Part shown: piece by piece, positions 31,257-33,829 of the stretch
Numbering within the stretch: the stretch's first letter is position 1
How the letters are laid out: each line of letters opens with the position of its first letter
Origin: Flavobacteriaceae bacterium
GTDB lineage: Bacteria; Bacteroidota; Bacteroidia; Flavobacteriales; Flavobacteriaceae
NCBI GenBank assembly: GCA_029942185.1
Contig: JAOZTK010000007.1
Location: 1 to 33,829, forward strand
DNA: 33,829 nucleotides
Direction of reading: 5' to 3'
The notes under the pieces: model-generated
What the model was told of the DNA's origin: nothing
The model's database searches: none
The model's input: only the letters and a program-made list of their open reading frames with translations
Position numbers and translations under genes: made by a program

Positions 31257-32333
31257 ATGCTAAAACCTTTACCAGAAAACAAGAAAGTATCCGTTGAAAA
31301 ATTAACTCAAATTTTTAATAATACTGTAGCTTCCTACAAATATTATTGGTTTTTATCAATATTACAGCTATTTGTAAGAAATAAAGACAATAAAAGTATT
31401 GAGGTTAAAGATATTCTAATTCAGATGATTTGTAATGCGTGGTATCCAATTAATTATTTTAAACTAAGTTTCGGATATAGTGATAAATTACAAGATAATA
31501 TTGTTGAAATTCAGAAAAAGCTTACTATCCCAATAGATATATCACATGATAAATTATTTATATTATTGAAAAATTCAAAAAATAAAGATGTTAATAAATT
31601 AATAACTCACTTTAACAAACAAGTTCCCTATAAGTTTTTATCACCATGGATTCCTTTTAAAACAACTGCTGAAACAATAAAGATGTCACAGGTTTTAAAA
31701 AACAATTGCCTTTATAAAATTTGCAAAAAAGACACATTTAAAATTGAAATTAATCCAAATTGGAGAGATTATCTTTTCAATAGTTATAAAATATTGCTAG
31801 ATTTTTCTTATTGGAATTTAATAACTTTTGTACAGTCAAATAATTTAAATATTCCAAATATTGCAGATAAATTAGTTAAACCAATTCAACGAAGAGGACT
31901 AGGGAAACAAAGAAAATACTGGGAAGTAGTTTTTGACGAATTAGGCTCTATCAATTGTATTTATACAGGTAAAACACTTTACAAAGATAGTTTTGATGTG
32001 GAACATTTTATTCCTTGGAGTTTTGTTTCTCATAATCAATTATGGAATCTTTTACCTTCTGATAGCAGTATCAATTCATCTAAAAGTAATCAACTACCGA
32101 AATTATCAACTTACTTAAAACCTTTTGTGGTAATACAAAGGGAAGCAATAGAAATTATATATTCTGAACACCCAAAAAACAAATTATTAGAAGATTATCT
32201 TTTTTTAGACACGAGTATTTCTAAAGTGTTAGATTTATCAGAAAAAGAACTAATAAAACGATTTCAAAATACATTAGAACCATTAATTCAAATTGCAAGT
32301 AACTCAGGGTTTAAGTATTGGGATAGACAATGA
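31257..32333 (+). CDS. HNH endonuclease with Cas9-like HNH signature
   Basis: Predicted metal-dependent nuclease of 358 residues. The HNH core lies at about 233-281. CIYTGK replaces the usual CxxC knuckle. VEHFIPWSF has the metal/base pair Glu249-His250, followed by Asn264 in WNLLP and Asn273, Lys276 in INSSKSNQLP. The spacing E/D-H, Asn, Asn, Lys-Ser resembles the HNH module of Cas9 (D839-H840, N863). There is no RuvC, bridge helix or RNA-guide module. The N-terminal 210 residues are helical, rich in aromatics and unrecognised, and may select the target. The gene is visibly more AT-rich than its left neighbours and its last four bases (ATGA) overlap the start of the methyltransferase-HIT gene, so the two form an operon. 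Confidence 0.82.
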   Translation: MLKPLPENKKVSVEKLTQIFNNTVASYKYYWFLSILQLFVRNKDNKSIEVKDILIQMICNAWYPINYFKLSFGYSDKLQDNIVEIQKKLTIPIDISHDKLFILLKNSKNKDVNKLITHFNKQVPYKFLSPWIPFKTTAETIKMSQVLKNNCLYKICKKDTFKIEINPNWRDYLFNSYKILLDFSYWNLITFVQSNNLNIPNIADKLVKPIQRRGLGKQRKYWEVVFDELGSINCIYTGKTLYKDSFDVEHFIPWSFVSHNQLWNLLPSDSSINSSKSNQLPKLSTYLKPFVVIQREAIEIIYSEHPKNKLLEDYLFLDTSISKVLDLSEKELIKRFQNTLEPLIQIASNSGFKYWDRQ

Positions 32334-33211
32334 AACAGAAAAACATATATTCATATTTAACAGCTAAAGAAAGAGATAAATTATCTTTTCCAATGAATTG
32401 GCTTAAAAGGAATGGGTTTTTGCAAGGGGAAATTCTAGATTATGGTTGTGGTCATGGTTCAGATGTTCAATTTCTTATTGATTTAGAATACAATATTGAA
32501 GGTTATGATAAGTACTATTTCAAAGAATATCCAATAAAAAAATATGACATAATTACTTGTATTTATGTTTTGAATGTTATAGAACCTATAGACCAAAGTA
32601 AAGTACTTATGTCAATCAGTCAACTATTAAAAGCTAATGGAAAAGCGTATTTTGTTGTAAGAAGAGATGTAAAAAATGAGGGTTATAGAACTCATTATAT
32701 TTATAAAAAACCAACATTTCAAACTAATGTAGTGCTTCCTTTTAAAAGTATCTATAAAAATGATTTTACGGAAATATATGAATATCAACATTATGAACAT
32801 GTTGTAGAAAAAAATTCAAAATGTGTATTCTGCTCTCCCAAAAGAGAAATACTTATCGAAACAGCATTAGCATATTCGGTTTTTGATAAATATCCAGTAT
32901 CAAAAGGACATGTTTTAATAATTCCTAAAAGACATGTTTCAAGTTATTTTGAATTGTCATTAAATGAACAAATATCTTGCAATCTTTTAATTAATGAAGT
33001 AAAAAACTATTTAGAAAAAAATTTTAAACCAGATGGATATAATATTGGGATAAACATAGGCGAAGCAGCAGGTCAAACTATTCACCATGTTCATATTCAT
33101 TTAATTCCACGATATAAAAATGATATCCCAAATCCAATAGGAGGTGTTAGAAATGTTATCCCAATAAAAGGGGATTATACAAAAACAGACTGGAAGGATA
33201 ACAATGATTAG
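32330..33211 (+). CDS. SAM methyltransferase fused to a HIT domain
   Basis: Two-domain enzyme of 293 residues. Residues about 1-155 are a compact class I methyltransferase: motif I EILDYGCGHGSD (34-45), acidic end of strand 2 at Asp60 (GYDKYY), motif IV-like IITCIYVLNVIEP (74-86). Residues about 163-293 are a HIT domain: CVFC (Cys165, Cys168) as a likely zinc pair, SKGHVLIIPKRHVSSYFEL, and the triad HVHIH at 253-257, where the middle His255 would be the nucleophile. HIT enzymes hydrolyse or transfer nucleotides from adenylated or guanylated substrates. The GCGHGSD methyltransferase type reminds me of those in DNA-modification islands. It overlaps the HNH gene by four bases. The substrate is unknown. 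Confidence 0.88.
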   Translation: MKQKNIYSYLTAKERDKLSFPMNWLKRNGFLQGEILDYGCGHGSDVQFLIDLEYNIEGYDKYYFKEYPIKKYDIITCIYVLNVIEPIDQSKVLMSISQLLKANGKAYFVVRRDVKNEGYRTHYIYKKPTFQTNVVLPFKSIYKNDFTEIYEYQHYEHVVEKNSKCVFCSPKREILIETALAYSVFDKYPVSKGHVLIIPKRHVSSYFELSLNEQISCNLLINEVKNYLEKNFKPDGYNIGINIGEAAGQTIHHVHIHLIPRYKNDIPNPIGGVRNVIPIKGDYTKTDWKDNND

Positions 33212-33283
33212 TTAATTATTGTCCAAAAATCACTTTCCGACCCTTTGAATTGTTTTAAATTCAGAATTCACTTCTTTTTAAAT

Positions 33284-33369
33284 TTTTATTCCGTTTTGTG
33301 TACTATTAGGGAAGGCTACAATATATCTACAAAATAAAACCTATTCTTAAAAAAAAACACGGAATAAAA
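33284..33369. repeat. 11-base inverted repeat with 64-base spacer
   Basis: TTTTATTCCGT (33284-33294) is the exact complement of ACGGAATAAAA (33359-33369). It lies in the 436-base stretch without a gene (33212-33647), downstream of the HNH/methyltransferase-HIT operon. It could be a long hairpin or the edge of a decayed element. No frame lies between the arms. Confidence 0.4.
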
Positions 33370-33485
33370 GCCAAAAGTATATTCAAATATGTACTCTTTA
33401 TACATTGCAAAGACTTTGTTAAACTTTGAAAATCAAAATGATATAGAAATATTTAAGTTTCTGTCATGTACTTAGAAAAAAATAT

Positions 33486-33493
33486 TATCTTTG
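33486..33493 (+). promoter_or_regulatory. -7 promoter element of the structured leader
   Basis: TATCTTTG is a full TAnnTTTG match. Transcription would begin about five to seven bases later, at 33498-33500, which is exactly where the first paired base of the leader's outer helix lies. A weak TTTC (33458-33461) is the only -33 candidate. Confidence 0.65.
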
Positions 33494-33498
33494 TGTTA

Positions 33499-33647
33499 TA
33501 CATCAGGAATCCTTAGCGGGATACCAACCGACTGCTACTCGCAGAAACGGTGGTTCAGAATGTGGAGTGTTCACTCAAACAATTAGAGTAATCCTTTAAT
33601 TTTAGCTGACTTGATGTAACAATGTTTAATCTTTAAATTGTTACATA
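33499..33647 (+). promoter_or_regulatory. Riboswitch-like structured 5' leader
   Basis: Paired elements can be read by eye. P1: 33499-33507 with 33610-33618 (nine pairs, one G-U). P2: 33518-33522 with 33591-33595. P3: ACCA/CCG at 33523-33530 with CGGTGGT at 33548-33554, one bulged A, capped by CTGC-TACTC-GCAG (33532-33544). P4: GAGT-GTTC-ACTC at 33565-33576. P2, P3 and P4 form a three-way junction. A second hairpin, TGTAACAAT (33615-33623) with ATTGTTACA (33637-33645), ends two bases before the ATG at 33648 and shares 33615-33618 with P1, so both cannot form fully. This is the layout of a translational riboswitch or cis-regulatory RNA. I do not recognise the class. Junction segments are GC-richer than the surroundings. 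Confidence 0.6.
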
Positions 33648-33829
33648 ATGAAAACAAAATTGGTCTCCATAAGTGTTGATGATCTCGAAGTAAAAGGAGA
33701 GATTACACGACATGAGAAATATTATCTGGAAGTTGAGATCCTACATCCATATGTAAATTGGGATAGTTACAGAGCTATATCTCCGGTTATACTAAGAAAC
33801 GCCCCTAATCCCTTTATAAATAAGTGGGA
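33648..33829 (+). CDS. Unknown protein, C-terminus cut by window edge
   Basis: An open frame of 60 codons from the ATG at 33648 reaches the window edge without a stop. The peptide starts MKTKLVSISVDDLEVKGEIT and continues with EKYYLEVEILHPYVNWDSY, alternating hydrophobic and polar residues as in beta strands. There is no signal peptide. I do not recognise it. Its start codon sits directly behind the sequestering hairpin of the leader, so its translation is probably under control of that RNA. An in-frame codon pattern like the flanking genes and the promoter upstream support it as a real gene. Confidence 0.6.
   Translation, partial: MKTKLVSISVDDLEVKGEITRHEKYYLEVEILHPYVNWDSYRAISPVILRNAPNPFINKW

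Follow-up and report, generated by a model that had tools for sequence, protein, structure and literature searches.

A SAM-I/IV riboswitch as a probable translational OFF switch for a small unannotated protein in a Flavobacteriaceae bacterium

The window, by which we mean the whole stretch of 33,829 nucleotides analysed here, ends where its contig ends (C7, 33829 bases). Its last 343 bases hold a −7-like promoter word, a leader of 149 nt (33499–33647, the length given in the preliminary description of this DNA) and an open reading frame (ORF) of at least 60 codons that runs off the contig end. Upstream lie a gene for an HNH_4 protein (31257–32333) and, following it, a gene for a methyltransferase-HIT fusion (Pfam Methyltransf_23 and HIT; 32330–33211). 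Positions 33321–33478 resemble a stretch of G000:C51 (L003, ~1430–1540) that is there similar to a transposase C-terminus; in the window this stretch is frame-broken and ends 8 bases 5′ of the −7 word, so that a mobile-element remnant immediately precedes the switch. Another partial copy lies at G000:C8:45–85. A 14-nt inverted repeat located 5′ of the leader (33284–33297/33356–33369; 93% complementary, spacing 58 nt) is possibly part of the same remnant. The −7 word itself, TATCTTTG, was read in the sequence at 33486..33493 on the plus strand and is of the Bacteroidota type, with a predicted transcription start at approximately 33498–33500. The consensus −7 element of the preliminary description is thus present as a word, but it occurs in the window at chance frequency (62 observed versus 53 expected) and is therefore weak, taken alone, as evidence for a transcription start.

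From its sequence, the leader aptamer is assigned to the SAM-I/IV riboswitch class (Rfam RF01725) and is a predicted binder of S-adenosylmethionine (SAM). The match spans 33495..33592 on the plus strand and covers the full model (positions 1–99) at 45.2 bits (E 3.8e-6), against a gathering cut-off of 41.1 bits, and the same match was recovered above the cut-off in a search of its own genome (E 3.1e-6). The score lies just 4 bits over the cut-off, and J1/2 reads CAGGA versus CAAGA in the consensus, CAGGA being common to many homologues. We obtained the match by scanning only 33200–33829 with laxer filters; an Rfam scan of the whole 33.8-kb window at gathering thresholds returned no match, and a genome search run in large batches under strict filters likewise gave no RF01725 match for G000. 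Its recovery under laxer filters on the window end indicates that the empty whole-window scan was an effect of the speed filters. Annotation of long contigs with Rfam misses such copies, and routine annotation may undercount them. The search of other Rfam families at a relaxed E-value yielded only a weak match to mir-973, which we put down to chance. Given that the aptamer class is already known, the leader does not constitute a new riboswitch class; the preliminary description had called it undescribed and had recognised none of the common riboswitch cores, SAM among those listed, and on both points it has to be corrected.

Sampling of 397 genomes from the family and 395 from the phylum detected RF01725 in 54 and 33, respectively; the class has been listed as "several phyla, marine", mostly from metagenomes (PMC2864571). 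Within the family the aptamers form two sets: group A precedes a 430–440 aa NhaC-type transporter, which is taken to be MetT, whereas groups B and C, a set that includes the window, precede other genes. In other families and classes, RF01725 stands before metK (L097), an apparent metY (L102) and an apparent metT, which points to SAM as the ligand. At one locus (L130, G247:C17), two SAM-I/IV aptamers lie ~1.2 kb apart on one strand, scoring 95.5 and 52.5 bits with model R1. At L103 and L115, in a distant family, the RF01725 match has a GC-rich stretch and a U run on its 3′ side, and the ORFs behind them are small or unclear; this arrangement suggests that these two switches may act by transcription attenuation.

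The helices of the aptamer, all on the plus strand, were delineated from the Rfam alignment and from 35 homologues. P1 is formed by 33499–33503 and 33560–33564, with changes on both sides at 2 of 4 pairs. The P2 hairpin (33509..33522; 33509–33513/33518–33522) carries compensatory changes at all 4 modelled pairs; P3 (33523..33554) pairs 33523–33526 and 33528–33530 with 33548–33554, contains the CAAC/GUG pocket and continues into an upper stem (33532–33535/33541–33544). Compensatory changes were also found in the hairpin that follows P1 (33565..33576; 33565–33568/33573–33576), which corresponds to P5 of SAM-IV-like folds. A pseudoknot, PK-2, joins the loop strand UACUC (33536..33540) to the tail strand GAGUA (33586..33590). 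PK-2 covaries in the closest aptamers to that of the window (L016, L029, L050, L055, L064 and L067); it is not general across all homologues (own partners −3.6 versus swapped partners −2.8 kcal/mol) and is undetectable in some subgroups. RNAalifold on the 35 aptamers recovered P1, P2, P3 and the post-P1 hairpin, with compensatory changes on both sides at 13 of 18 pairs. The three-way junction proposed in the preliminary description keeps P2 and P3, which are true aptamer helices, but its closing helix (33499–33507/33610–33618), named P1 there, is an alternative helix that we term anti-P1.

This anatomy agrees with SAM-I/IV (SAM-I-IV-variant; Weinberg et al. 2010, PMC2864571) over the whole 99-position model: P1, an undivided P2, P3, the post-P1 hairpin, PK-2 and the SAM-pocket positions are shared, while J1/2 differs (AGG versus AAG). 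P2 is single and short, with no internal loop of the kind present in SAM-I and SAM-IV, in line with what the same paper states for SAM-I/IV. The crystallised SAM-I/IV has been described with a P4 helix (PMC6890682); in the window, 5–6 nt separate P3 from P1, so that no hairpin fits there, and the RF01725 consensus line itself has no P4. With SAM-IV (PMC6890682) the window shares the post-P1 hairpin and a PK-2 that joins the P3 loop to the 3′ tail, but it lacks the P2a/P2b split and PK-1. Membership in SAM-IV was rejected, as neither a second P2 element nor a PK-1 strand is found in the sequence or the consensus.

In the family-level alignment, 16 columns are invariant among the 35 group B/C aptamers. 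They include A33502, U33503, G33507, A33508, C33525–C33528, U33551, G33552, A33560 and U33561, which we mapped onto SAM-I core positions 6, 7, 11, 12, 44–47, 57, 58, 87 and 88; the SAM-I residues within 5 Å of SAM are 6–8, 11–12, 44–47, 57–59 and 87 (PMC6890682). By our own position mapping, the putative SAM-pocket equivalents are thus present and invariant in 35 homologues. Against a SAM switch stands the gene downstream in the window, which is not a methionine gene. We considered whether the same architecture might serve another metabolite, as expected if a SAM-I/IV-fold variant with a changed ligand headed small unannotated proteins rather than genes of sulfur metabolism; ligand-switched variants exist elsewhere, for instance a spermidine-sensing variant of a SAM riboswitch (PMC10853860). 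This is very unlikely, because every pocket-equivalent position is invariant in the 35 sequences, the window aptamer is still accepted by an Rfam model that was built from SAM-class RNAs, and metT, metK and metY are headed by the same aptamer family within the phylum.

Beyond the aptamer, the anti-P1 strand CUUGAUGUA (33610..33618, plus strand) pairs with UACAUCAGG at 33499–33507 through nine pairs including one G-U, where the preliminary description had placed a nine-pair helix. The start-codon hairpin, the candidate OFF element, follows at 33614..33646 on the plus strand (33614–33623/33637–33646, 10 pairs). It had been reported as nine pairs; its arms 33615–33623 (UGUAACAAU) and 33637–33645 (AUUGUUACA) indeed form nine perfect pairs, 33614/33646 adds a tenth, and, counted to 33645, it ends two bases 5′ of the ATG (33648–33650). 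A 162-nt stretch folded more stably than 197 out of 200 shuffled sequences (z −2.68); the hairpin alone gave z −3.2 (p 0.005), and the anti-P1 pairing tested against shuffled partners gave p 0.003. The two helices have 33615–33618 in common, as the preliminary description had noted in proposing that they compete. The competition they proposed has comparative support, but exclusion is only partial, given that the minimum-energy fold holds 6 anti-P1 pairs and 8 hairpin pairs at once.

In the B/C leaders, a strand 26–67 nt 5′ of the ATG complements each leader's own 5′ P1 strand. The mean anti-P1 duplex energy was −9.4 kcal/mol with own partners versus −5.3 kcal/mol with partners swapped between loci, and most of the 31 leaders beat shuffles. 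The pairing is retained with differing bases, as in UACAUCAGG/CUUGAUGUA in the window, UUACAUCAAGA/UCUUGAUGUAA (L012), GUAUUCCG/CGGGAUAC (L058) and UCAUUACG/CGUAAUGA (L062). It was replicated in new loci, most of them outside the family, where 13 of 14 were significant against dinucleotide shuffles. Furthermore, the anti-P1 strand of B/C leaders continues into a hairpin that either reaches up to the ATG or contains it; this start hairpin had a mean z of −2.14, with p ≤ 0.05 in 18 of 31 leaders, whereas in metT leaders, which are without the platform of anti-P1 strand and start-codon hairpin, the mean z was −0.15 and none of 21 reached p ≤ 0.05. Five of the 14 new loci had a significant start hairpin in a fixed 42-nt window, which clips longer platforms, and several carry a platform near-identical to that of the window (e.g., L105, UUGGUGUAACAAU...AUUGUUACAC). 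Covariation, which the preliminary description had named as a check, was thereby found in homologous leaders as compensatory changes in the aptamer helices, the anti-P1 helix and the start-codon hairpin. Judged from these comparisons, a partial exclusion between P1 and anti-P1, together with a start-region hairpin that the ligand would favour, is conserved in homologues; aptamer identity, an intact SAM pocket, and the conserved anti-P1 strand and start hairpin are likewise supported.

The same evidence bears on whether the leader is a degraded, non-functional SAM riboswitch stranded beside a mobile element, its hairpins being relics. The transposase-like remnant immediately upstream, the ORF cut by the contig end and the modest Rfam score would fit such a history, but the pocket bases, P1–P3, the pseudoknot, the anti-P1 strand and a perfect 10-pair start hairpin are all intact and a promoter word sits at a fitting position, making decay very unlikely.

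We consider it highly probable that the leader is a translational OFF switch for SAM at the start codon of the small ORF. The transcript would start at approximately 33499. At low SAM, the 5′ strand 33499–33507 would pair with the anti-P1 strand 33610–33618. Because the latter also forms the lower part of the 5′ arm in the start-codon hairpin, the bases immediately 5′ of the ATG would stay open and the ORF would be translated. When SAM is plentiful, the aptamer would bind it and lock P1 (33499–33503/33560–33564), and the released anti-P1 strand would form the 10-pair hairpin 33614–33646 against the ATG, blocking initiation. Because SAM binding would remove the one helix that competes with the start hairpin, SAM should switch translation off. 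In constraint folding with models lacking the pseudoknot and SAM, 33640–33645 were fully paired when P1 was enforced, and 33642–33646 were ~70–90% unpaired when anti-P1 was enforced. In the predicted SAM-free ensemble, again without the pseudoknot, the start hairpin was still mostly formed (0.6–0.95 per pair); since the competition is also limited to 33615–33618, the switch would need a co-transcriptional folding order or partial opening near the ATG, or would itself be partial. We infer ligand binding in the window copy, the off-with-SAM direction, the transcription start and the absence of a transcriptional effect.

The stability of the hairpin in the SAM-free ensemble would also suit a working leader whose start hairpin represses constitutively or binds a protein, while the aptamer works chiefly through transcription attenuation. 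We regard this as most improbable: no terminator was present in the region of the window leader that was searched, while the metK and metY homologues do show, by eye, a GC stem and U run, and the anti-P1 strand is kept beside the hairpin in sequence-divergent leaders. The ligand-controlled translational switch with competing start-codon helices, as first proposed, is supported by the compensatory changes of the homologues; overall, the preliminary description was partly supported, right in its observation and half right in its interpretation. Translational control within the SAM clan has also been described for the SAM-I riboswitch of the Xanthomonas met operon (PMC7270179), which belongs to another class and phylum and has another target gene.

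The putatively regulated ORF (33648..33829, plus strand; MKTKLVSISVDDLEVKGEITRHEKYYLEVEILHPYVNWDSYRAISPVILRNAPNPFINKW, 60 aa before the contig end) had no match in Pfam, NCBIfam, PADLOC or PHROG. Searches of 60 relatives, 397 genomes of the family, contigs from GTDB and from viruses, and plasmids gave either nothing or weak or broken matches, none of them a convincing homologue; a DNA search in phages was also negative. A Saprospiraceae match (L037) was rejected as a homologue, as it lies inside a 392-aa flavoprotein-dehydrogenase-like protein and is most likely due to chance. The other B/C genes mostly encode proteins of 50–240 aa without annotation, among which phmmer clustering defined nine recurrent families. 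The largest, with 10 members across orders of Bacteroidota (L027, L033, L045, L048, L051, L052, L053, L083, L111 and L120), shares the pattern ELxxxYNxE...GxxGVxxxxLxAL; a second has 7 (L044, L098, L099, L100, L101, L105 and L121), both within the family and in more distant Bacteroidota. Some recurrent families sit together behind one switch (L083 and L084). The riboswitch was rejected as an obligate partner of the largest family, the aptamer being found at just 6 of 10 hits of a profile that was built from switch-linked members. Matches of the small proteins to defence families were not convincing (best PADLOC E 0.006). A protein of ~130 aa (MTSTISQKFTASFVIGLQKGYT...) recurs near switches (L074 +650, L081 +868, L086 −410 and L024 1702–2097).

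Of 40 B/C switches, 6 had a C5 DNA methylase (PF00145) within 7 kb, against 0.19 expected under uniform placement (Poisson 5e-8); none of 23 metT switches had one at that distance, in genomes whose methylase numbers were comparable; the contrast, computed with 38 B/C switches, gave a Fisher value of ~0.05. DNA cytosine methylases lie within 2 kb of the switch at L070, L071, L081, L084 and G281:C16, several with restriction-like genes, and at L081 and L084 they stand 3′ of the switch on the same strand in operon-like fashion. Integrases adjoin several switches among the neighbours listed (L073, L079, L082, L086 and L088). Such proximity could also arise because accessory genes cluster in islands, with no functional link involved. 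A bolder reading, which we offer only tentatively, is that the SAM-I/IV aptamer and its start-hairpin platform form a portable cassette, ON at low SAM, for accessory small proteins in restriction-modification and integrase islands of Bacteroidota. If so, the proteins would be made upon SAM depletion, for example when methylation fails to protect host DNA, or alternatively when a phage destroys SAM, and the window switch would be one member.

The window leader departs from described SAM-I/IV members in that the gene behind it encodes an unannotated small protein and is not one of SAM or methionine metabolism, and from metT members in its start-codon platform. The papers found to mention RF01725 or SAM-I-IV, judged mainly by titles and abstracts, describe no regulon of small accessory proteins. 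As far as we found, it is new that a switch variant heads recurring groups of unannotated small accessory proteins, often next to DNA cytosine methylases or integrases. To our knowledge, known SAM riboswitches act on sulfur and methyl metabolism; it is unusual that the B/C switch, with its own recognisable platform, repeatedly heads unrelated small proteins and is enriched near DNA methylases, enzymes that themselves use SAM. If SAM control holds true, dozens of unannotated proteins would gain a testable trigger, low SAM, and the supply of methyl donor would be linked to accessory or defence genes.
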